Notes under the pieces: model-generated | What the model was told of the DNA's origin: nothing | Database searches by the model: none | Seen by the model: the letters and a program-made list of their open reading frames with translations, nothing else | Shown here: piece after piece, positions 10,009 to 37,395 of the stretch | Layout: each line of letters opens with the position of its first letter | Numbering within the stretch: the first letter of the stretch is position 1 | Source of the DNA: Lysobacterales bacterium | Lineage (GTDB): Bacteria > Pseudomonadota > Gammaproteobacteria > Xanthomonadales > SZUA-36 | Direction: 5' to 3' | DNA: 40,691 nt | Assembly: GCA_021648125.1 (NCBI GenBank) | Contig: JAKITK010000025.1 | Span: 1-40,691 of the forward strand | Made by a program: the position numbers and the translations under genes

Positions 10009-11748
10009 ATGCCTAGGAAGACTCTTGCGATATTAATAAGCATATGCTTTATAAGCCAAGTATATGCGGCCTCTGATAATGATTTTGTCATCACCATCAA
10101 GTCCGACAATAGCGGAAATTCCCTCTCCACCCAGTTCACTATTCCAACCACAGGCGTTGGTTATAACTACAATGTCGACTGTAACGATGACGGAATATTC
10201 GAGGCAGCTGCTCAGACCGGAAATTACACTTGCGATTATGGTGGTGCTGGCACGTATACCATCAGAATTGAAGACAACAGCGGTATAGGCACCGGTTTCC
10301 CCAGAATCTATTTCAATAACACCGCAGACAGGCGAAAAATAACCGCTATACTGCAATGGGGAAATGGAGCTTGGACGAGCATGGAAAGTGCTTTTTATGG
10401 TGCTGAAAACATGACCGTTGTGGCCACCGACTCACCTAACCTATCTGCAGTAACAAATATGTCACGAATGTTCCAGGGAGCCAGCTTGGCTAATCCTAAT
10501 ACCAGTAACTGGAATACCACCACAGTTACCGATATGAGCCGGATGTTTATGCGTGCAACTGTTGCTAACCCCGATACTAGCAACTGGAATACAGCGGCGG
10601 TCACCAATATGGAAGCCATTTTCGTCGCAACTGCGGCTAACCCTAATACCAGCGGCTGGGATACCGCAAATGTCACTAATATGAGTAATATGTTCGCTGG
10701 GGCAACTATAGCTAATCCTGATACCAGCAACTGGAATACCGCTGCAGTTACCAATATGGCTGGCATGTTCAGCGGCGCGACTGTGGCCAACCCTGACACC
10801 AGCGGTTGGGATACCGCAAAGGTTACGCTAATGTGGTTTATGTTTCGCAATGCAGCCGTTGCTAATCCTAATACCAGTAACTGGAATACCGCCGCAGTTA
10901 CTAATATGCAAGCTATGTTTCACAACGCGGATATAGCTAACCCTGACACCAGTGGCTGGGATACCACAAAGGTCACTAATATGAGTCAAATGTTCAGTTT
11001 CGCGCCTTTGGCTAACCCCAATACTAGTGGCTGGGATACCTCTGCAGTTACAAATATGAGTGCCATGTTCGTTTTCGCAGCTGTGGCGAATCCCGATACT
11101 GCTAATTGGAATACCGCCGCAGTGACCAATATGACTCAAATGTTCGCTAACGCGCCCTTAGCAAACCCTGATACAAGTGGCTGGAATACTGCCGCGGTTA
11201 TCGGTATGGCTTCAATGTTCAGACGCGCAAGCTTAGCAAACCCTGATACAAGTGGCTGGAATACCGCCGCAGTTACACGCATGAACTCAATGTTCGCTGA
11301 TGCAACTTCGGCAAACCCTAATACCAGTAACTGGAATACAGCAGCAGTTACGCGCATGAATGTCATGTTTTTTAACGCAACTTCGGCAAATCCTGATACT
11401 AGCAGTTGGGATACCGCGGCAGTTACCACTATGGAATTAATGTTCGCCGAGGCAACTTCAGCCAACCCTGATACCAGTAACTGGAATATCTCGCTGGTAA
11501 CCGACATGGGTCTTATGTTTTCCGGGGTAGCACTACCATCGAGTGATTATGATGCACTGCTCATCGGATTTAATAATCAGGGCGTACAAAGCAGTGTTGT
11601 GTTTGATGGTGGTAGTAGCCAGGTATGTAGCACAGAGGGGAGGACTGCCAAGGATAGTTTAATCAGCTCGAATGGCTGGATAATTAGCGACGGGGGTATC
11701 TGTAGTGAGATAGACTTCATATTTAGCAGCAACTTTGAAAGCCTGTGA
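10009..11748 (+). CDS. DUF285/BspA-like repeat protein, copy 1 (14 repeats)
   Basis: 579 residues from the ATG at 10009, chosen over upstream starts because GGAG lies 8 nt before it, a signal peptide follows directly (MPRKTLAILISICFISQVYA), and both paralogues start at the matching place. A non-repeat head (about 21-160) has the acidic segment VDCNDDGIFEAAAQTGNY and YGAENMTVVATDSPNLSAVT. Then come 14 units of 25 residues (10489-11535; unit 2 has 24), pattern ANP(D/N)TS-x-W-(N/D)TAAVT-x-M-x-x-MF. This is the DUF285 'BspA/Mycoplasma lipoprotein' repeat, leucine-rich-repeat-like. The tail ends FIFSSNFESL. Flanks outside the repeats total 230 residues, as in copy 2. Probably an exported, surface-exposed binding protein; its ligand is unknown. 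Confidence 0.9.
   Translation: MPRKTLAILISICFISQVYAASDNDFVITIKSDNSGNSLSTQFTIPTTGVGYNYNVDCNDDGIFEAAAQTGNYTCDYGGAGTYTIRIEDNSGIGTGFPRIYFNNTADRRKITAILQWGNGAWTSMESAFYGAENMTVVATDSPNLSAVTNMSRMFQGASLANPNTSNWNTTTVTDMSRMFMRATVANPDTSNWNTAAVTNMEAIFVATAANPNTSGWDTANVTNMSNMFAGATIANPDTSNWNTAAVTNMAGMFSGATVANPDTSGWDTAKVTLMWFMFRNAAVANPNTSNWNTAAVTNMQAMFHNADIANPDTSGWDTTKVTNMSQMFSFAPLANPNTSGWDTSAVTNMSAMFVFAAVANPDTANWNTAAVTNMTQMFANAPLANPDTSGWNTAAVIGMASMFRRASLANPDTSGWNTAAVTRMNSMFADATSANPNTSNWNTAAVTRMNVMFFNATSANPDTSSWDTAAVTTMELMFAEATSANPDTSNWNISLVTDMGLMFSGVALPSSDYDALLIGFNNQGVQSSVVFDGGSSQVCSTEGRTAKDSLISSNGWIISDGGICSEIDFIFSSNFESL
10489..11535 (+). repeat. 75-bp coding tandem repeat array, 14 units
   Basis: Fourteen in-frame units, thirteen of 75 bp and one of 72 bp (1047 bp total), encode the DUF285 repeats of copy 1. 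Neighbouring units differ by many synonymous changes, so the array is not freshly homogenised overall, though shared words such as TGGAATACxGCxGCAGTTAC recur. Confidence 0.92.
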
Positions 11749-11932
11749 TTATGAAATCGTTAATCTCAATTTGGATCCGTACTCCAGCTTCATGAAGAAT
11801 TTTATCCTCACTCACTCAGACAGCTGCAGTTATGGGTTCTTTAACTGTACAATGCCAGCTTATGATGCGTCGCGCTAACCCAATCACACTTGTTTAGTTT
11901 GTCAAACACTCAAAAAATATGGAGTTTTAAAT
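11749..11932. promoter_or_regulatory. Duplicated spacer/leader before DUF285 copy 2
   Basis: 184 bp. The first part (TGATTATGAAATCGTTAATC) matches the DNA after copy 2. The rest (CTTCATGAAGAATTTTATCC, ACACTTGTTTAGTTTGTC, CAAAAAATATGGAGTTTTAA) matches the leader of copy 1 almost base for base near the start codon. The duplication unit is therefore gene plus about 150 bp of 5' DNA. Confidence 0.75.
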
Positions 11933-14047
11933 ATGCCTAGGATGACTCTTGCGGTATTAATAAGCATATGCTTTATAAGCCAAGTATATGCGGCATCTGA
12001 TAGTGATTTTGTCATCACCATCAAAACCGATAATGCTGGGACTTCTAACTCGACCCGATTCATTATTCCAACCACCGGCAGTGGTTACAACTACAATGTC
12101 GACTGTAACGATGACGGAATATTCGAGGCAGCTGCTCAGACCGGAAATTACACTTGCGATTATGGTGGTGCTGGCTCGTATACCATCAGAATTGCAGATA
12201 ACAGCGGTTTTGGCACTGGTTTTCCCAGAATCTATTTTAATAACACCGCAGACAGTCGCAAAATAACCGCTATACTGCAGTGGGGAAATGGGGCCTGGAC
12301 GAGTATGGAAAGGGCTTTTTATGGTGCTGAAAACATGACTGTTGTGGCCACCGACTCACCTGACCTATCTGCAGTAACCAGTATGTCACGAATGTTTCAG
12401 AGAGCCAGCCTGGCTAATCCTGATACTAGCAACTGGAATACCACCACAGTTATCGATATGAGCTCTTTATTCAGTGGTGCAACTGTGGCTAATCCTGATA
12501 CCAGTGGCTGGAGTACCGCAAATGTAACTAATATGAACAACATGTTCAGTGGTGCAACTGTGGCTAATCCTGATACCAGTGGCTGGAGTACCGCAAATGT
12601 CACAACAATGAGTAGTATGTTCAACGGCGCAATTGTGGCCAACCCGGACACCAGTGCTTGGAGCACCGCAATGGTTACGCAGATGGGGAGCATGTTTCGC
12701 AGGACAGACGCGGCTAACCCTAATACCAGCAACTGGAATACCGCTGCAGTTACCAGTATGGCTCAAATGTTCAGCGAGGCGGATGTGGCTAACCCGGATA
12801 CCAGTAGCTGGAATACCGTAAATGTCATTAATATGAGTCACATGTTCAGTTTCGCGCCCTTTGCTAATCCCGACACCAGTGGCTGGGATACAGCTGCAGT
12901 TACCAATATGGATAGCATGTTCAATTTTGCAACTGCGGCGAACCCTAATACCAGCGGCTGGAATACCGCCGCAACTACCAATATGACTAATCTGTTCAGG
13001 GGCGCGTCCTTAGCTAACCCCAATACCAGCAACTGGGATACTGCCGCAGTTACATCTATGGCTGCAATGTTCAGTGGCGCACTCCTAGCTAATCCCAATA
13101 CCAGCAACTGGAATACTGCCGCGGTTACCAACATGGCTGCAATGTTCAATGGCGCACTCCTAGCTAACCCGAACACCAGTAACTGGAACACTTCTGCAGT
13201 GACTAATATGAATCAAATGTTCGCTCGCATAACTTCAAACCCTGATACCAGCGGTTGGAATACAGCAGCAGTTACGCGTATGAGCGGAATGTTCTTTGAG
13301 GCAAGCTCAGTCAACCCTGATACCAGCAACTGGAATACAGCCGCAGTTACGCGTATGAACTCGATGTTCGAGGGTGCAACGGCGGCAAATCCTAATACCA
13401 GTAATTGGAATACAGCGGCAGTTACGCGTATGGACGAAATGTTCCGTTATGCAACTTCTGCAAATCCTACTACCAGCGGTTGGAATACAGCGGCAGTTAC
13501 CAACATGGATTTAATGTTCAGTGGCGCAACTTCAGCCAACCCGAATACCGGCGGTTGGGATACAGCGGCAGTTATCAGCATGAATCTAATGTTCAGTGGC
13601 GCAACTTCAGCCAACCCAAATACCAGCAACTGGAATACAGCGGCAGTTACGCGCATGACTGGCGTGTTCAATGAGGCAGCTTCAGCCAACCCTGATACCA
13701 GCAACTGGAATACAGCGGCAGTTACCAATATGCGGGGCATGTTTCGTAACGCAACTTCAGCCAACCCTGATACCAGTAACTGGAATATCTCGCTGGTAAC
13801 CGACATGGGTCTTATGTTTTCCGGGGTAGCGCTACCATCAAGCTCCTATGATGCACTGCTAATCGGATTTAGTAATCAGAGCGTACAAAGCAATGTTATG
13901 TTTGACGGTGGTAGTAGCCAGGTATGTAGCACAGAGGGGAGAGATGCCAAGGATAGTTTAATCAGCTCGAATAGCTGGGTAATTAGTGACGGGGGTATCT
14001 GTAGTGAGATAGACTTCATATTTAGCAGCAGCTTTGAAAACCTCTGA
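11933..14047 (+). CDS. DUF285/BspA-like repeat protein, copy 2 (19 repeats)
   Basis: 704 residues; the ATG has GGAG 8 nt before it. Signal peptide MPRMTLAVLISICFISQVYA. The head and tail are nearly identical to copy 1 (for example DCNDDGIFEAAAQTGNYTCD, WISLVTDM-type last unit, VCSTEGR, end FIFSSSFENL). Between them lie 19 repeats (12413-13834, 474 residues; unit 11 has 24). The sequence outside the repeats again totals 230 residues, so copies 1 and 2 differ in length by exactly five repeat units (125 residues). Individual units vary most at the positions after VT-x-M, the likely exposed face. Function as for copy 1: exported repeat protein, partner unknown. Confidence 0.9.
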   Translation: MPRMTLAVLISICFISQVYAASDSDFVITIKTDNAGTSNSTRFIIPTTGSGYNYNVDCNDDGIFEAAAQTGNYTCDYGGAGSYTIRIADNSGFGTGFPRIYFNNTADSRKITAILQWGNGAWTSMERAFYGAENMTVVATDSPDLSAVTSMSRMFQRASLANPDTSNWNTTTVIDMSSLFSGATVANPDTSGWSTANVTNMNNMFSGATVANPDTSGWSTANVTTMSSMFNGAIVANPDTSAWSTAMVTQMGSMFRRTDAANPNTSNWNTAAVTSMAQMFSEADVANPDTSSWNTVNVINMSHMFSFAPFANPDTSGWDTAAVTNMDSMFNFATAANPNTSGWNTAATTNMTNLFRGASLANPNTSNWDTAAVTSMAAMFSGALLANPNTSNWNTAAVTNMAAMFNGALLANPNTSNWNTSAVTNMNQMFARITSNPDTSGWNTAAVTRMSGMFFEASSVNPDTSNWNTAAVTRMNSMFEGATAANPNTSNWNTAAVTRMDEMFRYATSANPTTSGWNTAAVTNMDLMFSGATSANPNTGGWDTAAVISMNLMFSGATSANPNTSNWNTAAVTRMTGVFNEAASANPDTSNWNTAAVTNMRGMFRNATSANPDTSNWNISLVTDMGLMFSGVALPSSSYDALLIGFSNQSVQSNVMFDGGSSQVCSTEGRDAKDSLISSNSWVISDGGICSEIDFIFSSSFENL
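12413..13834 (+). repeat. 75-bp coding tandem repeat array, 19 units
   Basis: 1422 bp in frame: eighteen 75-bp units and one 72-bp unit. Units 2-3 (GWSTANVT) and units 9-10 (MFSGALL/MFNGALL) are close local pairs, and units 15-16 share MFSGATSANP, pointing to recent local duplications inside the array. Confidence 0.92.
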
Positions 14048-14259
14048 TTCTGAAACTGTTAATCTCGATTTGGATTCGTACTTCAGCTTCATGAAGAATT
14101 TTATCCTCATTCAGACAGCTGCAGTTAGGGTTCTTTAACTGTGTAGTGCCAGCTTATGGTAGTATCATGCACCGCGCTAGCCCAATCCCCAATCACACTC
14201 ATCACACTCAATCACACTTGTTTAGTTAGTCCAACTCTCAAGAAAGAATGGAATTTATT
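14048..14259. promoter_or_regulatory. Duplicated spacer/leader before DUF285 copy 3
   Basis: About 210 bp homologous to the two earlier leaders (TTCATGAAGAATTTTATCCT, GCCAGCTTATGGTAGTATCA, ACACTTGTTTAGTTAGTC). It is lengthened by a short expansion of an AATCACACTC-like word at about 14186-14216. The SD is weaker here (AATGGAATTT instead of ATGGAGTTTT), so copy 3 may be translated less. Confidence 0.7.
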
Positions 14260-15549
14260 ATGCTCAGAAAGACTCTGACGATACTAATCGGTATATGCGC
14301 TATAACCCAAGTATATGCGGCATCTGATAGTGATTTTGTCATCACCATCAAGTCCGATAATACTGGGGTTTCTACCTCCACCCAGTTCACTATTCCAACC
14401 ACCGGCAGTGGTTACAACTACAATGTCGACTGTGACGATGACGGAGTATTCGAGGCAACTGCTCTGGCCGGGAATTACACTTGCGATTATGGTGGTGCTG
14501 GCTCGTATACCATCAGAATTGCAGACAACAGCGGTTTAGGTACTGGCTTCCCCAGAATCTATTTCAATAACACCGCAGACAGGCAAAAAATCACCGCTAT
14601 ACTGCAGTGGGGAAATGGGGCTTGGACAAGCATGGAAAGAGCTTTTTATGGTGCTGAAAACATGACTGTTGTGGCCACCGACTCACCTGATCTATCTGCA
14701 GTAACACGTCTGTCACGGATGCTTCAGAGAGCCAGCCTGGCTAATCCTGATACTAGCAACTGGAATACAGCGGCAGTTACGCGTATGGATTACATGTTCG
14801 ATTTCGCAACCGCGGCAAACCCTGATACCAGCAACTGGAATACAGCGGCAGTTACGAATCTGGGCTTCATGTTCAGTTTCGCAACCGCGGCAAACCCAGA
14901 TACCAGTGGTTGGGATACCACAAATGTCACTAATATGAGTGGTATGTTCAATAGAGCAACCGCGGCAAACCCTGATACCAGCAACTGGAATACAGCGGCA
15001 GTTACGGGTATGAGCTTCATGTTCAGTTTCGCAACCGCGGCAAACCCTGATACCAGTGGTTGGGATACCACAAATGTCACTAATATGATTGGTATGTTCA
15101 GTTTCACAACCGCGGCAAACCCAGATACCAGTGATTGGGATATCGCAAATGTCACTGATATGAGAAATATGTTCAATAGAGCAACCGCGGCAAACCCTGA
15201 TACCAGTGGTTGGGATACCGCAAATGTCACTAGAATGAATAGTATGTTCAATGGCGCAACCGCGGCAAACCCTGATACCAGCAGCTGGAATATCTCGCTG
15301 GTAAGCAATATGGCTTTTATGTTTTCCGAGGTAACGCTACCATCGAGTGATTATGACGCCCTGCTCATCGGATTTAATAATCAGAGCGTACAAAGCAATG
15401 TCAATTTTGATGGCGGCAACAGCCGTGCATGTAGCACAGAGGGGAGGGATGCCAGGGATAGTTTAATCAGTTCGAATGGCTGGATAATTAGCGACGGGGG
15501 TATCGGTAACTGTAACCACATATTTAACAGCAGCTTTGAGAGCCTCTGA
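14260..15549 (+). CDS. DUF285/BspA-like repeat protein, copy 3 (8 repeats)
   Basis: 429 residues from the ATG at 14260, the position matching the starts of copies 1 and 2; an in-frame ATG at 14248 would add MEFI and lacks a better SD. Signal peptide MLRKTLTILIGICAITQVYA. Head and tail are conserved (VDCDDDGVFEATALAGNY; ACSTEGRDARDSLISSNGW) and total 229 residues. Eight exact 25-residue repeats occupy 14740-15339. Units 2-3 and 4-5 form a near-identical 50-residue pair alternating SNWNTAAVT and SGWDTTNVT. The C-terminus is HIFNSSFESL, the same end motif as the other copies but with GNCN replacing CSEID. Confidence 0.9.
   Translation: MLRKTLTILIGICAITQVYAASDSDFVITIKSDNTGVSTSTQFTIPTTGSGYNYNVDCDDDGVFEATALAGNYTCDYGGAGSYTIRIADNSGLGTGFPRIYFNNTADRQKITAILQWGNGAWTSMERAFYGAENMTVVATDSPDLSAVTRLSRMLQRASLANPDTSNWNTAAVTRMDYMFDFATAANPDTSNWNTAAVTNLGFMFSFATAANPDTSGWDTTNVTNMSGMFNRATAANPDTSNWNTAAVTGMSFMFSFATAANPDTSGWDTTNVTNMIGMFSFTTAANPDTSDWDIANVTDMRNMFNRATAANPDTSGWDTANVTRMNSMFNGATAANPDTSSWNISLVSNMAFMFSEVTLPSSDYDALLIGFNNQSVQSNVNFDGGNSRACSTEGRDARDSLISSNGWIISDGGIGNCNHIFNSSFESL
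14740..15339 (+). repeat. 75-bp coding tandem repeat array, 8 units
   Basis: Exactly 600 bp. The segment at about 14871-14945 recurs at about 15021-15095 with very few changes, so a 150-bp two-unit block has duplicated recently. Confidence 0.92.
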
Positions 15550-15583
15550 TTATGAAATAGTTAAGTGGCCAATATAACAACGC

Positions 15584-15635
15584 CACTACCGTAAAAAATT
15601 CCTATATGGTATCGATGCAGATATTTCAATCAAAT
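15584..15635 (+). pseudogene. Fragment of a second sulfotransferase-like gene
   Basis: The DNA encodes HYRKKFLYGIDADISI, clearly homologous to HYRQKVLYGIDEDISI of the intact gene at 16410-17315 (positions about 16602-16655). Third-codon bases differ at several sites, so this is an older paralogous remnant, not a fresh copy. A stop (TAA) lies three codons upstream in frame and similarity ends after about 17 codons. It sits 34 bp past the end of DUF285 copy 3, at the edge of the tandem duplication. Confidence 0.75.
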
Positions 15636-15750
15636 TAATTGGTGATGGTTTAGACTCAACTTGCAAATGTAGCGCATGCAGATCAGAATATAGCCCTAAG
15701 CAGCCTCATAAGCCTCCCAATCATTCTTAGCTCTTGCGTGGAACTAAAAT

Positions 15751-16357
15751 ATGAAAAACATACTAATTTTAAGCTTGATTCTACTACTGATATCCCCACC
15801 TACGGTGGCGCTAACATCTGACCCTGGATCTTTGCCCTTGGTGCAAATTGAGGTTCTGGAGTATCAGGGTGCCTTTATCATACCAAGTAGTCTATATGGA
15901 GAATCGCGGGCTGATGGTGCCGCCGGGCCAATGGAATATAACCCTGCCAATCACTCGCTTTTTTTCAGCGGCAATTTTACCCATGGTGCAGTGGCTGAAT
16001 TTTCGATTCCGGCGCTGGTCAATAGCACCGATGTAACGGCGCTGAATACCGGTGCTGTATTACAGAATTTCCGCAGAGTACTCCATCAAACTCCAGATTC
16101 AAACCCACAAAGAATTGACAGAGTAACCGGTCTGAAGCTATTTAACGGCAAGCTAATTGTAAATGGAGTGAGATTTTATGATGCTTCGGCTGACAATACC
16201 CATACTACCCTGGTAGTTGAAAATGCCAACGACCTAGCCAATAGCGCAATTTCAGGGTATTACCAATTACAGGGGGCGGCGCATATTGCTGGCTGGATAT
16301 AGGCTAACTAATGTTGTTCAAGACACACTGTTTTTGGATGGTTTTGAACCCAACTGA
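15751..16357 (+). pseudogene. Truncated/frameshifted secreted-protein gene
   Basis: The first 183 codons (15751-16302) are intact: signal peptide MKNILILSLILLLISPPTVA, then LEYQGAFIIPSSLYGES, MEYNPANHSLFFSGNF, VAEFSIPALVNS and YYQLQGAAHIAGWI. This pattern recalls a family of longer exported bacterial proteins of unknown function. After AGWI comes TAG. In the next reading frame the DNA encodes RLTNVVQDTLFLDGFEPN and stops at 16355-16357, i.e. a C-terminal LF-x-DGFE tag identical in type to that of the 939-residue protein. The simplest reading is an internal deletion with frameshift that joined the 5' part to the last codons. The N-terminal piece could still be expressed and exported. Confidence 0.7.
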
Positions 16358-16409
16358 TAATTATTCTAGTCTTGCGCCAACTCTAGCTGTTTTTGGAAGT
16401 TATTGAACA

Positions 16410-17315
16410 ATGGATGAACTATCAGTCGCAGGGTCAACGATTATCAGCGCTGAATCGACAACCGAAATGAATTTTTTGGAGTTGCGCGTCTGCGGACTTA
16501 TGCGCAGCGGGAATCACGCTATAATTGACTGGATCATCAACCAGCACGCCGGTCAGCCTGTGTGTTTTTTGAACAATGTTAAACACGGTGATAATGACCC
16601 TTATATCCACTACCGGCAAAAAGTTCTTTACGGCATCGATGAAGATATTTCAATTGAGGTGCTGCGCAGTTTGCCAAAACAGCTCTTGATTTGCTCATAT
16701 GAAGATCGTGAAGAACTAGAGTCAGCACGGCTCGACTTTTTAAATAGTGCAACACGACTTGGAATGGATGCCATCCGCAGGCGATATTTAGGCCGTAGCC
16801 AGCATTTTTTCGATATTTTAATTGTTCGTGATCCATTTAACTGTTTTGCCAGCCGGGTTAAATTGTTGCAAACCCGTGGGGCTATGCGCGGGGTAAAAAA
16901 CCTTGCGCTTATCCTACATAACTGGAAAGTCACAGCGAGGGCAGCCATTGCTTTGGAAAAATATCCTGAGGCAAATAAAATTGTTATCAACTTTAATCGT
17001 TGGGTGACAGATGTTGATTCTCGGCAGCAACTCTCAAAGCGGTTACTCGGGACATTCAGTGATGAGTCATTGTTGAGTGTTTCCAGTTTTGGTGGCGGTA
17101 GTTCATTTCAACAAGATCAGCAGACTGTAGACACTCCGGTGCAGAGTAATATCCTTGAACGGTGGCAGCTTATGGCAGCGGATAGAAACTATCTACGCAT
17201 GATCTGTGATCCGGAGGTTCTTGTGCTTTCAGAAAAGTTATTTGGTGAGCTACCCGGTACTAGAGCGCTGGTGAATGCGGCTAGGAACCATATGACAAGT
17301 CGGGAACTCACCTGA
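16410..17315 (+). CDS. Sulfotransferase-superfamily protein
   Basis: 301 residues. An early GLMRSGNHAIIDWI (about 30-43) matches the 5'-phosphosulfate-binding loop of PAPS-dependent sulfotransferases, and LIVRDPFNCFASRVKLL (about 139-155) matches the 3'-phosphate-binding RDPxxxxxSR motif. Other folds using such loops are less likely. No signal peptide or membrane segment, so cytoplasmic. GGAAG lies 10 nt before the chosen ATG; an in-frame ATG at 16467, closer to the first conserved motif, is an alternative start. Acceptor unknown. A remnant of a related gene lies at 15584 and surface-protein genes lie upstream, so a role in modifying exported polymers is possible but unproven. The next gene (ydbH) begins 86 nt later. 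Confidence 0.75.
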   Translation: MDELSVAGSTIISAESTTEMNFLELRVCGLMRSGNHAIIDWIINQHAGQPVCFLNNVKHGDNDPYIHYRQKVLYGIDEDISIEVLRSLPKQLLICSYEDREELESARLDFLNSATRLGMDAIRRRYLGRSQHFFDILIVRDPFNCFASRVKLLQTRGAMRGVKNLALILHNWKVTARAAIALEKYPEANKIVINFNRWVTDVDSRQQLSKRLLGTFSDESLLSVSSFGGGSSFQQDQQTVDTPVQSNILERWQLMAADRNYLRMICDPEVLVLSEKLFGELPGTRALVNAARNHMTSRELT

Positions 17316-17401
17316 ATTTGGGGTGGATTTGACAACTATTAAACAAGTAGTGGCCTGCCTTTTGTTATAGTGACAGCAGAGAAAACCGGATATTATTTTT
17401 A

Positions 17402-26205: not shown

Positions 26206-26210
26206 AATAT

Positions 26211-29124: not shown

Positions 29125-29150
29125 CTTCTTTGATCTGCAAAAATTTAAAC

Positions 29151-30191
29151 ATGAAAAATTTGAATAAATTACCGACCTTTGCAAACGGCTGCGACTCACT
29201 TTTAAGTAAGCACTTAACCGATACTGTTTTCGCCGAACTGAAAGATAAACACACCAGAAACGGTTTTGATTTGCAGCAGGTAATCAACTCAGGCCTTATA
29301 AATACTGATAGTAGTATCGGTGTGTATGCGGGAGATAAAGCTTCCTACAGCACATTCTCTGCACTGTTTGACCCGATTATTGAAAGCTACCATGGCTTTA
29401 AAAAAACTGAGCAACATCAAAGCAATTTCAATCCAAATGATCTCGACGCTCCGAATCCAGACCCCGAGAATAACTATATAATTTCCACCCGGATTCGTGT
29501 GGCGCGTAATCTATCGGCTTTGCCGCTCGGCTCGGCTATCTCAAAACGCCAGCGTAAGATTGTTGAACGACTGATCGTTGTGGCACTGAATAAACTGCAA
29601 GGAAAATTAGCAGGAACCTATTTTCCACTTCAAGGGATGATCGAAGCCGAAAGGGTGAAGTTAGTCGCGGATCATTTTTTATTCAAAGCGGGAGACCGTT
29701 TCCTCGAGGCCGCCGGTTTAAATCGGGAATGGCCAGAGGGCAGGGGAATCTTTCATAATGATGAAAAAACCTTTCTGGTTTGGGTCAACGAAGAAGATCA
29801 ATTACGGATGATTTCAATGCAAATGGGTGGTGATATTAAAGCCGTGTTTAGCCGATTGTCCACAGCAGTGGCTGAACTTGAGACTGCCCTGAGGTTTTCT
29901 AAATCCGATCACCTAGGTTACATTACCAGTTGTCCCAGTAATTTGGGTACGGCAATGCGCGCTAGTGTGCATATTAAACTGCCTAGGTTGTCGAAAAACA
30001 TGCCTGAATTTGAGAAAATAGCCAAACAGTATCAGCTGCAAATTCGGGGAATTCACGGCGAGCACTCAGAAAGCCAGGGCAGCACTTACGATATTAGCAA
30101 CCGCAGAAGGTTGGGAGTAACAGAAGTTGAATGTGTGCAGGTACTGCACGCCGGTGTATTGGCGTTAATTAACAGGGAAAAGCTTTTCTAA
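29151..30191 (+). CDS. Arginine kinase (phosphagen kinase)
   Basis: 346 residues, the size of single-domain arginine kinases. N-terminal domain: KLPTFANGCDSLLSKHLTDT, IGVYAGDKASYSTFSALFDP. Catalytic domain: ISTRIRVARNLS, GRGIFHNDEKTFLVWVNEED (E214/E215), the reactive Cys261 in TSCPSNLGTAMRAS, flexible-loop GIHGEHSES (E304, E307) and YDISNRRRLG. All signature residues of the ATP:guanidino phosphotransferase family are intact, and the GEHSES loop and overall similarity favour arginine over creatine. It makes phosphoarginine as an energy buffer. The family is common in invertebrates and sporadic in bacteria, so lateral acquisition is likely. Start: ATG 29151 matches the family's N-terminus; a TTG at 29121 overlapping the recR stop by 3 nt is an alternative. 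Neither has a strong SD. Confidence 0.93.
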   Translation: MKNLNKLPTFANGCDSLLSKHLTDTVFAELKDKHTRNGFDLQQVINSGLINTDSSIGVYAGDKASYSTFSALFDPIIESYHGFKKTEQHQSNFNPNDLDAPNPDPENNYIISTRIRVARNLSALPLGSAISKRQRKIVERLIVVALNKLQGKLAGTYFPLQGMIEAERVKLVADHFLFKAGDRFLEAAGLNREWPEGRGIFHNDEKTFLVWVNEEDQLRMISMQMGGDIKAVFSRLSTAVAELETALRFSKSDHLGYITSCPSNLGTAMRASVHIKLPRLSKNMPEFEKIAKQYQLQIRGIHGEHSESQGSTYDISNRRRLGVTEVECVQVLHAGVLALINREKLF

Positions 30192-30255
30192 AAATACGAC
30201 CGACAGTAGTTCTGAATATACTGCCCAATATTTACAGGCCTGTTTAAGGCAGCCT

Positions 30256-30648
30256 TTACCGCCTCAGGAGCGAGGCGGTAACCCATAGCACCAATAGTGC
30301 GGCGGCGATGATTGTCAATCCTGGAGTATGCATTGAGCTGAGACCGGCTAAAACCGGTAAAGCAACACCAGTTGCTGCCAGCGACCAGGCAAGCGTCGGT
30401 TTCTCGGCATCAACAGCAAGTGCCAAGAAAACGAATCCTGAAATTGCCAAAGTAGCGTGCAGTATTGGTGCTATAGATGGATTTGTCAGTGCCATAAACA
30501 CCGCCCCGTTTACGCCAATAGCAACCACTAAAATACTGAAAACTTTCGCAGCATAGCAGGCGCTATTTTTTGCTTTCCTTAGTGCCGGCAGTACGGGTTT
30601 TCGTTCAGTAGTATCGTTATTAATCCAATTAATTACATGTGTAGTCAT
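30256..30648 (-). CDS. Small integral membrane protein under TetR control
   Basis: 130 residues with a short polar N-terminus and four hydrophobic segments (about 33-54, 58-79, 86-106, 109-127; for example VFSILVVAIGVNGAVFMAL and GLTIIAAALLVLWVTASLL). No recognised family. GGAGAAG lies just before the ATG. It lies 54 bp downstream of the tetR gene on the same strand, with a TetR-type operator in the gap, so it is the most probable regulated target. Its last codons overlap a perfect 9-bp inverted repeat (30257-30280). Confidence 0.75.
   Translation of the reverse strand: MTTHVINWINNDTTERKPVLPALRKAKNSACYAAKVFSILVVAIGVNGAVFMALTNPSIAPILHATLAISGFVFLALAVDAEKPTLAWSLAATGVALPVLAGLSSMHTPGLTIIAAALLVLWVTASLLRR
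30257..30280 (-). other. Hairpin overlapping the stop codon of the small membrane protein
   Basis: TACCGCCTC and GAGGCGGTA form a perfect 9-bp stem with a 6-nt loop that includes the stop codon of the minus-strand gene. No T-run follows, so it is not a standard terminator; it may protect the 3' end of the mRNA. Confidence 0.5.
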
Positions 30649-30667
30649 TTTCTTCTCCGTTATAAAA

Positions 30668-30687
30668 TACTTACTAATAAGTAAGCG
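30668..30687. promoter_or_regulatory. Predicted TetR operator, site 1
   Basis: TACTTAC (30668-30674), six bases, then GTAAGCG (30681-30687). It lies between the tetR gene and the small membrane-protein gene. The half-site and the six-base spacing are the same as in the site upstream of tetR, which is why I read both as operators of the encoded regulator. Confidence 0.75.
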
Positions 30688-30702
30688 AATTAGGTAATTT
30701 TT

Positions 30703-31278
30703 TTAACTGCTTATTCCGAGATCAGTGCGAATCTGAGCAAATATACTGGTGAGGATATCCATGCTTTCGACCCGGGCCATTTGGCGTGCACCCTGGATGG
30801 TAGCAAGAATTGCCACGGCTTTACGCTTAGCAGGCCCTTCAAAGTGGAATTCATCTTGTTCGCGGCCTGTTTCCAGAACTTTTGTTAACCAGTTGAGCGA
30901 ATCATGAATGAAACTATCATTGGCTCGTTTGATGTTATCGCTGAGGTCTTTATAGTCCACCGCCAATGCGCCAACCATGCATATGGGTCGCCCGCATCCG
31001 CACTGGTCTAAGGTATAGTCGAACAGGCCTTCAAGCTGGGGGCGGGCAGGGCCTCCATAGGCCATAAATTCTGAGGTTGATTCTCTCAATAGTTGGTGGT
31101 TTTCAGCTATGAGTGCACTGAGTAAATCCATTTTGTTGGGAAAATGATAATGAATGGCAGCATTTTTGATTCCCAGTGGTTCGGAAATATCACGGTAACT
31201 AAAACCATTGAGCCCACGCTGAAGCATCAGCTGAAAGGCCTGGTTGATGATTTGCTCTCTTGTGGTTGCTGCTTGCAT
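30703..31278 (-). CDS. TetR-family transcriptional repressor
   Basis: 191 residues. N-terminal helix-turn-helix (about 5-55): REQIINQAFQLMLQRGLNGF, SYRDISEPLGIKNAAIHYHF, PNKMDLLSAL. The C-terminal ligand domain contains a cysteine group, DQCGCGRPICMVGALAVDY (C93, C95, C101 approximately), unusual density for this family and compatible with thiol or electrophile sensing. Two matching dyads, one in front of tetR and one in front of the downstream membrane-protein gene, imply autorepression and control of that gene. The inducer is unknown. Confidence 0.93.
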   Translation of the reverse strand: MQAATTREQIINQAFQLMLQRGLNGFSYRDISEPLGIKNAAIHYHFPNKMDLLSALIAENHQLLRESTSEFMAYGGPARPQLEGLFDYTLDQCGCGRPICMVGALAVDYKDLSDNIKRANDSFIHDSLNWLTKVLETGREQDEFHFEGPAKRKAVAILATIQGARQMARVESMDILTSIFAQIRTDLGISS

Positions 31279-31289
31279 TGATATTTTCC

Positions 31290-31309
31290 TACTTACTTAT
31301 AGGTAAGTA
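31290..31309. promoter_or_regulatory. Predicted TetR operator, site 2
   Basis: TACTTAC (31290-31296), six bases, then GTAAGTA (31303-31309), a perfect dyad immediately upstream of the tetR start codon. It shares sequence and spacing with the site at 30668-30687. Confidence 0.78.
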
Positions 31310-31421
31310 TACAGCAAATTTTTTAAAAAGCAATTATTTGGCAGTTGTAAGATTGGCAGTGAGGCGTTCCGAACCCAGCTTGATACCAAATGGGTTTAAA
31401 TTCCCCCCAAACAATTACTTC

Positions 31422-33884
31422 CTAGAACTCAATCGTTTGAAAAATTACCGTACTATCCGACCAAGTATAAGGTTTAGGCATGGAATCCAACGGCCGTTGA
31501 GGTGCATCTGCTGGCAGTCCATAATCAATCTCAACAATCTTTGCCTGCAAAGTTTTACCGAGTTTAAGCGTCAGTATAATATCAGCGCCATCATCCGGAA
31601 GGCCATACCAGCGCCAGCGCCACCAGTTATCAGCACGGGTTTTGTCTTTTTCCTTCATCGCGCTAACTTTTTCGGTCTGTTGGGTGTTTTTCGTCTGCTT
31701 GCTTGGTATTACTACTGGAAATCCGTTCACACTGGCAGCTGTAATACCCGCATCACTTGGGAACAGTAAATTAATATAGTCTGCAGAAGTTGGGGAGTGT
31801 AGCCGCAAGCTGACCTGCCGCATACCTCCAACCATTCGCTCGCCAGTAACTACTAGACTTGCAGCTTTAAAGGCAGGCAAGGGTGTAGCTTTAATATTAG
31901 TCTTGCGATCATAGCCGGGCATAATTCGCAAAAAGTTTTCTGCACGCGTATCCGTACCCATAAAATCAGTAAGCCAGGTGTTTGGGGTGGTATCAGAGCT
32001 GACCCAAAAACCTTCCTGCTGGTCAACATCGATAGCATAAAATAGCTCTTCCCCTAGTGGGTGGCGTTGATCAAAATCGCGATCAAACATGATGATGCCG
32101 GTTGTTAGCAAGCCGAGGAAAATAATCAGCAGCGGAGCCCTTGTCTTCAAAGCAGAACCAATAGATACAACTAGTGGCAAAATTAAAAGTAGTGCCAGGG
32201 TGCTAAAAATCATAATTCCCTGGGGCAGGGTAGAGCCCAGTGCGAGATAAGCCAAAATAATGATAGGTGACAATAGCAGCAACGGAATAATGCAGCTGAG
32301 AATAAATGCTGTGTCCTTGAGCCAACCAGCTATCAACTTCCGGCGTAAAACAAGCCCGAGCAGTACGGATGCTAATGGCCAGATAAATAGATAAGAAGCA
32401 TTCGGTGCTACATAAACCAGTGTTGCAGCTAGCAACCACCATAACATCAGCCCGGCTGTCCAAAGGTCTGCGGTGCTTTTACGCCTGCGGATGAACTCTA
32501 ATAGAGGAATCAACAGAAGTAAGCCTGCTGCCACAAGCCACGGCCGTCCCGCTAAAAGGCTCAGCAGTGCTAGGCCTACAACAAAAACTACAATTTCGAG
32601 GCTTCCCATGCCGCGCTTAATACCACCCGCAAACCAGGCAGTTATTCCCAGAGTCAGCACAAAATAAGCCAGCAATGGCCATTCCCCGAGTGATATCAAC
32701 CGACTAATACCGTTTTCTGAAGTGCGTTGGTAGTATATGAGGCCCTCAAAAGCACTATTGATGATCAGCAATAAAACCAGCAAACTGACAATGCCAGCAA
32801 GAAAATCGCCGGAATTAATAATCCCGCATTTTTTAGCCGAGAAGAATACCGCTAAGCCAAATAGTAGAACCAACACGCCGACAACTACGGCGCTAGTCTG
32901 GCTATAGCTAACAACTTCCCCCTGCCAGAGGTTAAAGTAGGTTTTGTCGCCCTCGGCTGACTCCCATTCCCCGAGATTAGAAAAATGGCGGGCGGTACCC
33001 AATACATAGTTAGCTTGTTGGGCGAGGCTGTTTTTATCCAGGTTTTCAGCGCTATCGGTGCGCGCATGATAATCTGCCAGTCCGGCGACAAAAGCAAAAT
33101 TCAGACCCGCAATACCTTCACCCTTGGTGATGCTCATGTCGGTATCATTTGGCATGCGTTTATAGATTTCATAGGATAATGAACTGGCAGCCAGATCCGG
33201 TGCCGACTCAATCAGCTGATCAATCAACCAGGCATTATTGCTGCTGGTTTCAAACATTGAGGAGACCCCATAACTGCCGCGGGCTTCAAAATTCAATATC
33301 AGCCCAGAATTAGCGGCCAGTGGGTGCTGGCGGAAATAGCCCTGCGCCCCTAACAACCCCACTTCCTCACCATCAGTAATCAGGAAAACCACATCGTGTA
33401 CCTGTGTTTGCCCGCTTGCCAAAATCCGCGCAACCTCCATAATCCCTGCGACATTCGCTGCAGCATCACCCGCCCCCGGGCCATCATAACGGGAGTCGTA
33501 GTGACTCATCAACACTAGATCATTGGCATCCCCTTTCAATCCGATTTCGGTTCCTGGTAATCTGGCGATAATATTTTCGACATTGCCGATCATCGTGGTT
33601 TTATTCGATCGGTGCGGCAGTTTATACACCACCGTAGTTTTTTGTACTTCAGTTTCAAGACCCAGTGATTCAAAATAATCGACGATATAATCCCTGACTT
33701 CCCGGTTTGCCGCACTACCCATCGGATGGGGTTTATCAGCGATAATTTCAACATGCCGGTCGAGCGCGGCATAATCAATATCGCTATTGCTGTCAGCTTC
33801 AGGCGCCAGCGTCTGCTGATAGCCAAAGCCCAGCATAAGTACTAAAAACAAAAAGCTAATAAGGGTCTTTTTCCAGTGAATCAT
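31422..33884 (-). CDS. Membrane-bound M28-family metallopeptidase
   Basis: 820 residues from the ATG at 33884; the frame starts 10 codons earlier but MIHWKKTLISFLFLVLML begins the signal anchor and follows CCGGAA. The M28 aminopeptidase-like domain (about 45-310) has zinc ligands in order: His in LMSHYDSRYDG, bridging Asp in GAGDAAANVAG, catalytic/ligand Glu pair in TDGEEVGLLGA, acidic ligand in LNFEARGS and His in DYHARTDSAENLD. About nine hydrophobic segments follow (about 340-620), then a 200-residue soluble C-terminal domain with TrpArg-rich DNWWRWRWYG. This is the layout of ER metallopeptidase-1/Pff1-like proteins. It cleaves peptides on the outer face of the inner membrane; the substrate is unknown. 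The gene stands alone, 144 bp from tetR. Confidence 0.93.
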   Translation of the reverse strand: MIHWKKTLISFLFLVLMLGFGYQQTLAPEADSNSDIDYAALDRHVEIIADKPHPMGSAANREVRDYIVDYFESLGLETEVQKTTVVYKLPHRSNKTTMIGNVENIIARLPGTEIGLKGDANDLVLMSHYDSRYDGPGAGDAAANVAGIMEVARILASGQTQVHDVVFLITDGEEVGLLGAQGYFRQHPLAANSGLILNFEARGSYGVSSMFETSSNNAWLIDQLIESAPDLAASSLSYEIYKRMPNDTDMSITKGEGIAGLNFAFVAGLADYHARTDSAENLDKNSLAQQANYVLGTARHFSNLGEWESAEGDKTYFNLWQGEVVSYSQTSAVVVGVLVLLFGLAVFFSAKKCGIINSGDFLAGIVSLLVLLLIINSAFEGLIYYQRTSENGISRLISLGEWPLLAYFVLTLGITAWFAGGIKRGMGSLEIVVFVVGLALLSLLAGRPWLVAAGLLLLIPLLEFIRRRKSTADLWTAGLMLWWLLAATLVYVAPNASYLFIWPLASVLLGLVLRRKLIAGWLKDTAFILSCIIPLLLLSPIIILAYLALGSTLPQGIMIFSTLALLLILPLVVSIGSALKTRAPLLIIFLGLLTTGIIMFDRDFDQRHPLGEELFYAIDVDQQEGFWVSSDTTPNTWLTDFMGTDTRAENFLRIMPGYDRKTNIKATPLPAFKAASLVVTGERMVGGMRQVSLRLHSPTSADYINLLFPSDAGITAASVNGFPVVIPSKQTKNTQQTEKVSAMKEKDKTRADNWWRWRWYGLPDDGADIILTLKLGKTLQAKIVEIDYGLPADAPQRPLDSMPKPYTWSDSTVIFQTIEF

Positions 33885-34017
33885 AAAAATTCCGGATTTA
33901 TTGATTAAGCACATATCTTACTTGTTTGGGTTCATATTTCAAAAAAAATATTTAACATTCCTATATTATAGCCTTTGAAGTAAATAATACTTTTAAAGCA
34001 TATCTGGGGGAATATTA

Positions 34018-34101
34018 GTGCGTTTCTGGTGGGTACACCAAAACCAAACCTTTCAGCAAGAAACTAAAGGTGGTTACCTGTGGTCGCCGAAACGCAAATC
34101 C
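34018..34101 (+). pseudogene. 5' relic of an HNH-type endonuclease gene
   Basis: From a GTG at 34018, with GGGGG 8 nt upstream, the DNA encodes RFWWVHQNQTFQQETKGGYL then WSPKRKS. This is the highly characteristic opening of a family of HNH restriction-type endonucleases (FWWVNQNQTYxxE-GGYLWSPK). The similarity stops after about 27 residues, where short GAGCTTTC repeats begin. Promoter and start are kept but the enzyme body is missing, so this is a remnant. The longer open frame to 34305 is not credible as a protein. Confidence 0.65.
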
Positions 34102-34178
34102 GAGCTTTCAAGCGAGCTTTCGAGCTTTCCAGCTTTCAAGGAGAGCTTTCAAGGACCGAGCTTTCAAGGACAGACGCT
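34101..34178. repeat. GAGCTTTC(AAGGA) short tandem repeats
   Basis: The word GAGCTTTC or its variant recurs six times in about 75 bp, several times as GAGCTTTCAAGGA, with irregular spacing of 8-20 bp. It starts exactly where the endonuclease similarity ends, so the repeat may mark the deletion joint. Confidence 0.8.
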
Positions 34179-34575
34179 CGCTAGAGGTATTCCCGTTTTT
34201 GCCACGAGAGAAAGTCTCACATTGCCGACAATAGTGCGGGTAAACTTACTTGGCTTTTATGAAAAACAGCTGTATTACCCCGAGGCTCGGAGGAACTTCA
34301 TCTGAAAGTGTCCCGTAAACAGGTACGCGGTAGTGGCACACCCAGGGTCTAACCAAAACCATCGGGGAAGTTTTTTATCCAATATCTGTAACCTTCGAAA
34401 AACCAATTGTTCCACAGAGCGCGTTTAAGCCTAGGGCGGGAACTCGGGGAAGGATTAATCATGCGTGCCAGTAAACTCAAACTTTATTCGGTTTGACTGC
34501 GTTGCGCACATGTCAACTATCCGGGACACATAGTGTACCCGGATAATTGCCGGTTAATTGCTCTGTCAAAGACAG
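34179..34575. other. Gene-free junction with a hairpin
   Basis: About 400 bp with no supportable gene. A hairpin TATCCGGG/CCCGGATA (34518-34545, 12-nt loop) lies 31 bp past the stop codon of the minus-strand 939-residue gene. It may help end that transcript, though no clear T-run follows. Confidence 0.5.
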
Positions 34576-37395
34576 TTAAAGTACCGCTTCAAAACCATCG
34601 CCGAAAATCATATCTGGCAGTTGCCCAGTGATAGCAATACATGCAGAAAGCTCGGATGTGTTTCCAGCCGTGTCAGTTGCGCTGGCAACCAAAAGCTGAC
34701 CCACGGGCGCATTAGCGGTTAAATCAATAACAAAACTCGCATCACCCGCAGCATCAGTTGTTATCTGTGCAGTACCCAAAGGGGTTTCAGCTTCTCCATA
34801 GCCTGATGAATCACAACTTGAGTTGGTAAAAAACTCCAGGCTTAGCGTTAAGTCAGCTTCCCCATTGTAAGTTCCGGTAACTTGAGTGCCAACGCCAAGA
34901 ATACTGTTGGCAACAGTCAACACCGGAAAATTAAGCAGGCTGTTAGCGCCAACATCCACATCACCAATATCATTAGCATTAACGCTGGTAACATCATCAC
35001 AACTAAATGTTCCAGCATTGTAGTCGACGCATAAATCTATCGCTAGATCAGCATTACTGAAGATAGAGTTACCCTGGATTGGCGAGGCTCCAATTCCGGT
35101 ATTGTAAAACACCCCATCACCGCCGTTATAGGCAATTATATTTCCGGCACCAGCTTCAGTGCCACCAACCTGAGTGCCCTGACTCAGAACTTGTTGCAGC
35201 AGAAAAACACCGTGCCCGGCGTTACCAAGATCACCACTACCGGTTTGGTCTGTACCAATTTTGTTACCTTGAACAATATTACCAACGGTAGAACCACCTA
35301 TTCGCAGACCATCCAGGCCACTGCTGGAAATAATATTTCCGGCACCAATTGCCGTACCTCCAATCAAGTTCTCGGTTGCCCCACCAGTTATAAATATTCC
35401 AACACTGGCATTACCCAAGCCAACCATCCCGGTAACATCTGTACCAATATAGTTACCCTGGAAAATGTTGCCGGTTGGGTTTGGGTTACCAGAAGTACCT
35501 CTACTAATTATAATATGCGGGTTGCTGACAGCCAAATTACCAGAAATTATATTTCTGGCCCCAGCAGCTAGACCACCAATAGTATTTTGGGATGCCCCAT
35601 TATCTATTTGGATGGTGGTGGTCTCATTCCCGATCACCACAGCACCAGTAAAATCAGTACCAAAATAATTGCCTTCTATGCGATTGCCAGTAGCCCCAGA
35701 GCCTCCAATAGACAGCGCTGAAAAGCCCTGACCCGAGATAATGTTACGCGCTGCAGCAACGGTTCCACCAATTAGATTATTGGAAGAGTTAAAAAGTTGC
35801 ACACCGTTACCACCACTCCCCATACTTAGAGTGCCACCAGGGTCAGTGCCAATATAATTGCCTTCTATGATACTGCCGCCGCTTCCGTTCAACAAAATAG
35901 CACTACCGCCGATACTCCCAAGCACAAAATTACTGATGACCAAGCCACGGATCATACTATCGCCACCCAAAATTCGCAGTGCAGTTATCCCCTCACCATC
36001 AGCCAGGTCATCATTCGCCCCATCAAGCTGGATCACCGGGGTAGAAACAAAACCCGGTTGAGTAGTACCGTCAATTACAATTGGGCTTCTTATGTCCGGG
36101 AATCTTTCTACCGGGCTGATCGTATGTGGGCCAGCGCCCGGGATGTCAAAGCTTATCTGGTCTAATTGAGCAAAAGCCGGGACATCCACAACCTGTGCTT
36201 GCTCAGCAGCATCCAGCGTGGCTAACGCCAGTGTACCCTCGGCAAGCAGTATGGCTTCACGAAATGTCACTACACCATCTCTACTATCTTCATCGCCAGT
36301 GTCGTTAACCGTGATAGTTGCAACCGGAACATTAAAGCTAATTGCTAGGGCATAAGGTGCCGTTTGTAATACCACCAAATCATCCACTGCATCTGCAGTA
36401 AGACGCATATATAAGGCATCTACAGCCGTATGTTTAGCTGTAATTTGTGACCATTGACTATTGGAAACCACCCTGTAATCGGCAGGAAACCACTGCGCTG
36501 AAGGAGCTGCTGACTTAACCGCCGAAACCATAGTTGTATCCAGAATATCGCTATCAGCTAATAAAACTGGAGCACTAGGCTGGGGTGAACTAATACCTAC
36601 GCTGGCAATTGAGTTTAGGCTTTCTCTTTTTCCAGATTCCAGCTTTACCGGGTCAATAAACCCGCTCCACTGGCGTAACTTAGCAGTGGCTGCGCCAGTT
36701 ACGCCTTGCAATAGATAAATCGTTGCTTGGTTCTCAATTTGCGTTTCTAGCAGTAAATCTGGCAAGCCATCTCGGGGCTGCCATTCACCCACTGCAATAT
36801 CTTTGAGCTGCCCACCTATCGGGTATTCAATGCTTTGGTTAAAGCTCCCAGTGCCAGTTCCGTGGGTAAAGTACAAATTCTCTGAGCCGATAGGCATTAA
36901 GGCCAAGTCGAGCTGCCCATCAGCGTTGAAATCGCCCGCAAGCAGCCGGTCAGGGAAGAAATCCAGGCTTTGTACTTTCTCAGGAGAAGAGAACAATCCA
37001 TCCCCATTAACAACTGCATTATTCTGCTCGTAAACACCCTGAGTCAAGCCCCGGAGCAGCACTATCGCACCTGCTTCAGCATCTGCATAACCGATGATCA
37101 AGTCACTAATGCCATCGCCATCAAAGTCACCCTTGGCGATTGAAATCGGAACTCCAAGGTCTGCCGGTAACGGTACAATTATCTCCTTGAGTCTGGTTTT
37201 TAACTTGCTTTCAGCTGGTGATTCAAATGCATCGCCAAGCGTAGCGCGTAATGTGCCACCCGCGCTTGGCAGGGCCGTTGCAAGACCAGCAAAACTCAAA
37301 AGGAAACCTATCAATACACATTGGTGCAAGGCAGGTATAGAAAAAATCCGTCTGTCAGAGAGCCTGACAACGGGAGACAAAATGTGAGCATCCAT
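34576..37395 (-). CDS. Large secreted FG-GAP / beta-helix protein with C-terminal GFE motif
   Basis: 939 residues. A long signal region ends near GLATALPSA (about 45). FG-GAP/VCBS-type calcium-binding repeats follow (KGDFDGDGISDLIIG, AGDFNADGQLDLALM; about 90-250). A CSLREA-like segment (VNDTGDEDSRDGVVTFREAI, about 365-385) opens a right-handed parallel beta-helix (about 440-790). The helix is built of NIISGN / GNYIGTD-x-TG / NxIGGT turns, a known beta-helix repeat class. A last beta-sandwich domain has SLEFFTNSSCD and ASATDTAGNTSELS. The protein ends QLPDMIFGDGFEAVL. AAGGA lies before the ATG. Extracellular or surface adhesin-like role is inferred; no enzymatic residues are evident. Confidence 0.88.
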   Translation of the reverse strand: MDAHILSPVVRLSDRRIFSIPALHQCVLIGFLLSFAGLATALPSAGGTLRATLGDAFESPAESKLKTRLKEIIVPLPADLGVPISIAKGDFDGDGISDLIIGYADAEAGAIVLLRGLTQGVYEQNNAVVNGDGLFSSPEKVQSLDFFPDRLLAGDFNADGQLDLALMPIGSENLYFTHGTGTGSFNQSIEYPIGGQLKDIAVGEWQPRDGLPDLLLETQIENQATIYLLQGVTGAATAKLRQWSGFIDPVKLESGKRESLNSIASVGISSPQPSAPVLLADSDILDTTMVSAVKSAAPSAQWFPADYRVVSNSQWSQITAKHTAVDALYMRLTADAVDDLVVLQTAPYALAISFNVPVATITVNDTGDEDSRDGVVTFREAILLAEGTLALATLDAAEQAQVVDVPAFAQLDQISFDIPGAGPHTISPVERFPDIRSPIVIDGTTQPGFVSTPVIQLDGANDDLADGEGITALRILGGDSMIRGLVISNFVLGSIGGSAILLNGSGGSIIEGNYIGTDPGGTLSMGSGGNGVQLFNSSNNLIGGTVAAARNIISGQGFSALSIGGSGATGNRIEGNYFGTDFTGAVVIGNETTTIQIDNGASQNTIGGLAAGARNIISGNLAVSNPHIIISRGTSGNPNPTGNIFQGNYIGTDVTGMVGLGNASVGIFITGGATENLIGGTAIGAGNIISSSGLDGLRIGGSTVGNIVQGNKIGTDQTGSGDLGNAGHGVFLLQQVLSQGTQVGGTEAGAGNIIAYNGGDGVFYNTGIGASPIQGNSIFSNADLAIDLCVDYNAGTFSCDDVTSVNANDIGDVDVGANSLLNFPVLTVANSILGVGTQVTGTYNGEADLTLSLEFFTNSSCDSSGYGEAETPLGTAQITTDAAGDASFVIDLTANAPVGQLLVASATDTAGNTSELSACIAITGQLPDMIFGDGFEAVL

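Follow-up and report, generated by a model that had tools for sequence, protein, structure and literature searches.

The stretch of DNA analysed (the window) spans 40,691 nucleotides and holds several genes for exported proteins that share a short motif close to the C-terminus. Three tandem genes on the forward strand (10009-15549, +) encode exported DUF285 (PARCEL-repeat) proteins with a mutual identity of 75-78%; DUF285/PARCEL is a repeat family whose Pfam and NCBIfam matches are named after Mycoplasma and Listeria models. The first (10009..11748, +) was listed as an open reading frame (ORF) from 9778, and 10009, picked by eye, is its likely start, with a signal peptide. Its C-terminal tag reads IFSSNFE (11719..11739, +), that of the second protein (11933..14047, +; 704 aa) IFSSSFE (14018..14038, +), and that of the third (14248..15549, +; 433 aa) IFNSSFE (15520..15540, +). 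All three are loose forms of the tag, variants of which are enriched at C-terminal ends, and these three in the window compare with 0.02 expected. A structure model of the third protein has a mean pLDDT of 59.8, which is low confidence from a 3-row alignment, with nearly all of residues 365-433 below 50, and tells us only that the tail is modelled without confidence.

A broken gene follows on the same strand, with a body of 183 codons (15751..16302, +) that has a signal-peptide-like start and stops ahead of the tag. The strict tag LFLDGFE (16328..16348, +) begins about 25 bases beyond this stop in a different frame, which continues with PN to a stop at 16357 (+). On the opposite strand, an FG-GAP protein of 939 aa with beta-helix-like repeats, recognized by eye (34576..37395, -), carries the strict C-terminal tag IFGDGFE (34588..34608, -), followed by AVL and a stop. 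The first-pass annotation had described all five motifs as tags of exported proteins of unrelated architecture. Each motif is present, with coordinates that needed correction by up to 6 bases, and signal-peptide-like N-termini can be seen by eye on all five proteins. The broken gene does retain a strict tag at its 3′ end, as had been claimed, though not in the frame of its body. Given their identity, the three DUF285 proteins count as one case, so that the claim of unrelated architecture stands on three independent cases in the window, namely the DUF285 set, the FG-GAP protein and the broken gene.

Two other exported proteins are encoded at lower coordinates on the reverse strand. The product of 6720-8327 (-) has an IPTL-CTERM-like C-terminus that scores 15.3 bits against a cut-off of 20.5, and the same genome encodes a short EpsH-family protein (G000:C67:54480-54941), which we take to be a possible partner of it. 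The IPTL-CTERM-like tag and the present tag may be two tag systems coexisting in the genome of the window. The product of 8399-9250 (-) is untagged and ends in two dockerin-like repeats, seen by eye and matched by no Pfam or NCBIfam model.

The core of the tag is [IVL]-F-x-D-G-F-E, usually placed 0-5 residues ahead of the stop in exported proteins of unrelated fold. The consensus of 75 C-terminally tagged ORFs is D-x-[IVL]-F-[A]-D-G-F-E, often with x-P trailing, in which F, D, G, F and E are fixed by the search pattern; position -2 is D in 43 and E in 11 of the 75. Between 0 and 18 residues follow the FE (0-5 in 63/75). This leaves no room for a hydrophobic helix or basic tail behind the tag, and none is seen in front of it by eye, in agreement with the first-pass annotation. 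In the genome of the window (3.23 Mb, 111 contigs), the DNA pattern for [FLIMV]F.DGFE has 16 matches and the reversed pattern none; ten of the 16, the tag of the broken gene among them, lie 0-3 residues ahead of a stop. Across four genomes sampled around their tags, 57 of 74 matches are at most 5 residues from the stop.

Controls with mechanically called ORFs on both strands place the motif far above expectation at C-termini, and thus the earlier proviso that it might be no more frequent there than chance would give does not apply. At loci of genomes that have a particular type II secretion system (T2SS-A, defined below) and the tag with G at heptamer position 5 (the G-form), 59 of 3146 ORFs of at least 200 aa end in a strict tag against 0.14 expected from the rate within ORFs, a count that is enriched by choice since many of these loci were fetched for holding a tag. 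Loose C-terminal variants at the same loci number 23 against 0.90 expected; such variants beyond those in the window read DGFD, SGFE, DSFE and DDFE. Loci with the alternative R-form yielded 11 strict C-terminal tags against 0.02 expected, and at loci of genomes without T2SS-A, none of 495 ORFs ends in a strict or loose tag. A chance origin of the tag is excluded.

The first-pass annotation held the motif to be strictly C-terminal. Most copies are indeed near the stop, but some lie directly behind the signal peptide (by eye or heuristic, G-form copies in L081, L103, L119, L002 and L016; R-form copies in L375 and one in L403), so that "terminal" is the better word. This placement fits a docking tag and argues against C-terminal processing. 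Two loci (L030, L033) show degenerate tag copies in tandem at one C-terminus, as would be expected of a binding peptide and not of a cleavage site. None of 51 C-terminal tag peptides matches any NCBIfam model at E up to 10 (at 20-25 residues the peptides limit the sensitivity), which supports the earlier suggestion of a sorting, secretion or processing signal beyond the known tag families. In Pfam, one of the 51 matches weakly (E 0.25), and no convincing model covers the tag. The alignment holds 51 of the 75 tagged C-termini, 24 having been dropped by hand under no fixed rule. When the tag profile was run against the PDB, only five weak matches came up; every one is to a subunit of a pertussis-like toxin (best E 0.065), and we treat them as chance. 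Among open-access articles, judged by title and the start of the abstract, no paper on the tag was found.

Proteins that carry the tag are predominantly exported and otherwise diverse. By a home-made heuristic, used in place of a trained predictor, signal-peptide-like starts are found in 59 of the 75 C-terminally tagged ORFs and in 221 of 1437 untagged ORFs of at least 300 aa. The 48 tagged proteins that have such a start and a length of 150-900 aa match 52 Pfam families, none of them in more than six members, and hence the motif does not sit inside a domain shared by its carriers, the other outcome that the first-pass annotation had allowed for. Among the 25 families listed of these 52 are beta-helix, DUF5122, S8, M14 and M28 peptidases, GSDH, Kelch, FG-GAP and DUF11. 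NCBIfam matches, taken at E up to 0.001 with cut-offs not applied, include rhombosortase-, myxosortase- and T9SS-dependent M36 peptidases and rhombotarget A, which are enzyme kinds that bear other sorting tags elsewhere. When the ORFs of 60 stretches around tagged genes were clustered (20 from G110, 20 from G031, 15 from G005 and 5 from G128), no recurring partner gene stood out in the neighbourhood; longest-ORF calling is poor in such G+C-rich genomes.

The tag is concentrated in one order, Lysobacterales by record titles. At least one match is found in 102 of 151 genomes of the order, with up to 70 per genome, against 0-2 for the reversed pattern. In a sample of 276 genomes of the class, which includes the genome of the window and three more of the order, 51 have a match, and none has more than two except the genome of the window. 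Placement differs as well: within the order, 25 of 32 in-frame matches at 30 loci are at most 5 residues from the stop, whereas none of 30 matches at 30 loci in the rest of the class is C-terminal (one of them, L071, has a stop within the motif). Outside the order but within the class, the motif is background.

A stricter pattern, with an acid at -2 and a stop right behind FE, was run over named genomes and matched at least 119 stretches. Among those listed, 81 are titled Lysobacterales or its families and genera (counted by hand), including Marinicella, Dokdonella, Chiayiivirga, Pseudofulvimonas, Pseudomarimonas, Tahibacter and others; 26 are titled only Gammaproteobacteria, Proteobacteria or Pseudomonadota, and 12 something else. 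An ORF of at least 150 aa ending exactly in the tag is present in 101 of the listed stretches and in 6 of these last 12. Two of the genomes labelled Alcanivoracaceae behind these ORFs are, as identical secretin coordinates show, the order genomes G008 and G113. Outside the order, single tag-ended ORFs of 254 aa (a Pseudomonas record) and 215 aa (a Planctomycetota record) are possibly chance cases. IFSDGFE-like heptamers at two loci outside the order (L050, L065) resemble, by eye, the first strand of a jelly-roll-type domain, and such a strand is a possible evolutionary source of the tag.

The distribution within the order follows a secretion locus. The secretin GspD exceeds its cut-off in 52 of 54 panel genomes, tagged or not, so that having a T2SS as such fails to explain the pattern. 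Of the 28 tag-bearing genomes of this panel, 27 have two secretins over the cut-off, with G063 as the exception. A tree of 40 secretins divides into sides A and B at 100/100. Side A is a second secretin clade, GspD-A, which is far removed from side B and accompanies the tags; without one long-branched secretin of family f2, the rest of side A forms a branch with 85/98. Side B includes an Xps-like operon of the genome of the window that runs, by order, from F to N plus D, with several parts below their cut-offs and no match at the place of L. In T2SS-A, gspC, gspD and gspE lie together. In 23 of 35 fetched stretches gspF and ftsE lie alongside, as they also do in the genome of the window, where rpoH follows, and in G036; in the other 12, one of which is only 3.6 kb long, they were not seen beside gspCDE. 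At L256 the order is gspC-gspD-gspE-gspF, ftsE, ftsX, rpoH, and in some of the genomes T2SS-A adjoins ftsE-ftsX, which are cell-division genes (also at L263).

Core parts of T2SS-A match curated models of T2SS components. In one locus of the genome of the window, GspC (105.5 bits against an NCBIfam cut-off of 101.6), GspD (499.1 against 351.35), GspE (663 against 630.25) and GspF (434.5 against 424) all score over their cut-offs. At two T2SS-A loci, ten ORFs each were annotated, and no pseudopilin, GspL or GspM is among them; T2SS-A may share these parts with T2SS-B. A profile of GspD-A separates the 151 genomes into full-length matches of at least 735 bits, an f2 group at about 440-519 and the rest at 225 or less as listed, with a few partial matches falling in between. 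The source genomes of the GspD-A alignment (11 GspD) and of the GspC-A alignment (16 GspC) are found by construction.

At least five G- or R-tags are found in 79 of 84 genomes with T2SS-A and in 4 of 67 without (Fisher p 3e-31, kinship ignored), the R counts coming from 38 chosen genomes of the 151; put the other way, T2SS-A is present in 79 of the 83 genomes with at least five tags. For G-tags alone the figures are 64/84 and 4/67. T2SS-A status was set by hand from the GspD-A and GspC-A profile results, with partial matches (G052, G114, G118, G128) and a genome recognized by its GspC match (G123) counted as present and two incomplete genomes (G048, 90% complete; G059, 77%) as absent. GspC-A is found in 24 of 25 panel genomes counted as having T2SS-A and in none of 38 counted as lacking it, where the status of G123 rests on the GspC match itself and 12 panel genomes are in the profile. 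The test proposed in the first-pass annotation, correlation with one secretion gene, thus has a positive outcome: tag presence follows one secretion gene set.

The same association recurs within families. In family f12, GspD-A is present in all four tag-rich genomes and absent from 20 others (0-2 matches), and in f2 it is present only in the tag-rich genome (59 matches) and absent from 23 others (0-2 matches). Of 11 genomes reached via named loci, six have GspD-A in full length, Chiayiivirga flava, Tahibacter soli, Dokdonella fugitiva and Marinicella pacifica among them; one has it in pieces and four lack it. Metagenome-assembled genomes of L159 and L188 are without GspD-A though tagged at a C-terminus, and the Pseudomonas and Planctomycetota records with a tag-ended ORF are without full-length GspD-A. 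Of the four tag-rich genomes without T2SS-A, two are the less complete G048 and G059, and G063 (12 matches, several of them plainly C-terminal) and G097 (7) are real exceptions, being 97-98% complete members of the window's own family, f1, that lack both GspD-A and GspC-A. Six more f1 genomes have 2-4 matches without T2SS-A. Conversely, G064, G143, G082, G089 and G127 have T2SS-A and almost no matches of either form.

Genus g19 keeps T2SS-A but has only 0-2 G-tags per genome, and here the tag has changed. Only two of eight distinct complete FG-GAP ORFs of this genus end in the changed form, with the C-termini VFNDRFQAP and IIFSNRFE. The corresponding R pattern, [FLIMV]F.[DN]RF[EQ], was searched in 38 chosen genomes and has 13-91 matches in 14 of the 15 g19 genomes, 1 in the remaining one (G089) and 41 in G139 (genus g62); each of the 22 further panel genomes has 0-3, and the reversed control gives 0-4. 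At g19 and g62 loci, 12 of 17 in-frame matches are at most 6 residues from the stop, whereas 1 of 14 is so placed in other genomes; the share is 16 of 18 in stretches that were selected in part for carrying tags. In the R-form, the preference for D at -2 is less marked (4/16). No clean residue change in GspC, GspD or GspE matches the shift from G to R: 0, 5 and 3 columns discriminate, none with a clean charge swap. Acidic gains in the R-type occur in columns of GspC, GspD and GspE alike and may be a salt adaptation.

Taken together, the tag is probably a short linear recruitment signal for T2SS-A that is read by GspC and GspD. The tag and where it sits, the excess of exported proteins among its carriers, its co-occurrence with gspC and gspD of T2SS-A and the change from G to R in genomes that retain T2SS-A are all observed; we infer both the physical recognition by these proteins and the dependence of secretion on the tag. 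Tagged proteins would cross the inner membrane by means of their signal peptide and fold in the periplasm, where the tag would be exposed at one terminus of the mature chain, as a rule the C-terminal one and in some proteins the N-terminal one. The substrate-facing parts of T2SS-A, namely the PDZ-containing GspC and the secretin GspD, would then bind the tag, and T2SS-A would pass the folded protein out of the cell. In one sub-lineage, heptamer position 5 has changed from G to R. We consider the evidence evenly balanced on the broader proposal that this is a portable linear T2SS signal, an order-wide code of 7-9 residues that works at either end of the cargo and has G and R spellings read by matching GspC and GspD. 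Of the functions offered by the first-pass annotation, secretion fits better than sorting or processing; surface retention is the further possibility to be weighed.

Under surface retention or docking, carriers would be exported via T2SS-A or by a different path and then be bound through the tag to a receptor in the outer membrane or matrix, one that disappeared along with T2SS-A. We regard this as unlikely, if worth serious attention. Either-end placement and the tandem degenerate copies at L030 and L033 fit a binding peptide, and carriers match the M36 peptidase and rhombotarget A models, from families that have other sorting tags elsewhere. The authors of the Wenzhouxiangella AB-CW3 study detected no excretion of proteolytic activity and took it to be anchored to the outer membrane (PMC7691419). 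Still, among the gene sets tested, the one that co-varies with the tag is the secretion complex itself.

A link by shared ancestry only, in which the same few clades happened to lose both an ancestral T2SS-A and an ancestral tag for separate reasons, seems improbable. The GspD-A tree broadly follows families (no species tree was used), the losses fall in few families, and f1 retains some tags without T2SS-A. Because the losses are so confined, other co-lost genes could give the same pattern, and the partner genes compared with the tag distribution were T2SS parts and exosortase. On the other hand, f2 and f12 agree in the direction of the association, as does f1 less strongly, and the tag is changed where T2SS-A is kept.

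Sortase-like C-terminal processing, in which a dedicated enzyme such as an exosortase would cut or join the tag, is very unlikely. The short EpsH-family protein (PF09721) is found in 44 of 83 genomes with at least five tags and in 19 of 68 with fewer, mostly near the cut-off, so that misses are uncertain. The link is a weak one, and in the window's family most of the tag-poor genomes have an EpsH-family match too; exosortase fits worse as a partner than T2SS-A. Moreover, the tag lacks both a membrane helix and a basic tail and also occurs N-terminally, and the short exosortase may serve IPTL-CTERM instead, a pairing that we presume. Finally, it is hardly credible that the motif is a structural relic without a function of its own, the first beta-strand of a jelly-roll-type domain with an opening that can read like IFSDGFE. 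Outside the order, L050 and, behind a signal peptide, L065 do look by eye like such a domain start. Within the order, however, what comes after the motif is mostly a stop and not a domain, in many unrelated proteins of each genome, and G has given way to R in most of one genus.

As a recruitment signal for T2SS-A, the tag can be set beside several known export signals. The C-terminal domain of Type IX secretion substrates is folded and tens of residues long. Like the tag, it marks one end of a protein for a secretion machine of the outer membrane (such a role with T2SS-A being the proposal made here), but the tag has 7-9 conserved residues in place of a folded domain and occurs in different organisms. 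Type I secretion substrates have C-terminal signals and no N-terminal signal peptide, unlike most tag carriers, which have signal-peptide-like starts. Xcs is the second T2SS of Xanthomonas. If g23 is Xanthomonas, Xcs may be related to the system described here: one g23 secretin (G023) joins the GspD-A side (100/100), yet on a long separate branch and with about 515 bits against at least 735 for full-length matches. The G023 genome has no G-tag match and 1 R-tag match.

Tag carriers show two features of T2SS substrates, an N-terminal signal peptide (59/75, by the heuristic) and a T2SS in the same genome. Two papers on T2SS describe no linear signal common to its substrates (PMC7949064; PMC10128026). 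A 9-residue loop of PelI is described as a specific secretion signal (PMC7949064), and the Ig fold of VesB as transferable and dependent on the PDZ domain of EpsC, a GspC whose PDZ domain selects this one cargo by way of the fold (PMC12369372). Known determinants such as the PelI and Pel3 loops and the VesB Ig fold are like the tag in that exposed flexible segments are read by GspC and GspD; they are described as structural and substrate-specific, whereas the tag is one linear sequence across many unrelated proteins. GlyGly-CTERM with rhombosortase, PEP-CTERM, IPTL-CTERM and MYXO-CTERM are, like the tag, short C-terminal homologies on many unrelated exported proteins, and some genomes have dozens of carriers. 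VesB of Vibrio, which has a GlyGly-CTERM tag, is itself a T2SS substrate (PMC12369372). Unlike these CTERM tags, the present tag lacks a hydrophobic helix and basic tail, may sit N-terminally and has no NCBIfam match.

These results speak for a new family of terminal tags that belongs to a single bacterial order and goes with a second T2SS, and the tag may be the linear address label that T2SS machines have seemed to lack. If this is true, T2SS cargo would be predictable from sequence across a whole order. Since the tag is tied to one T2SS and has changed in a lineage that keeps it, the signal question becomes open to experiment. The tag would also offer a small label for exporting folded proteins in harmless environmental bacteria, and it would allow an inventory of exported proteins in an order with poorly known secretomes.
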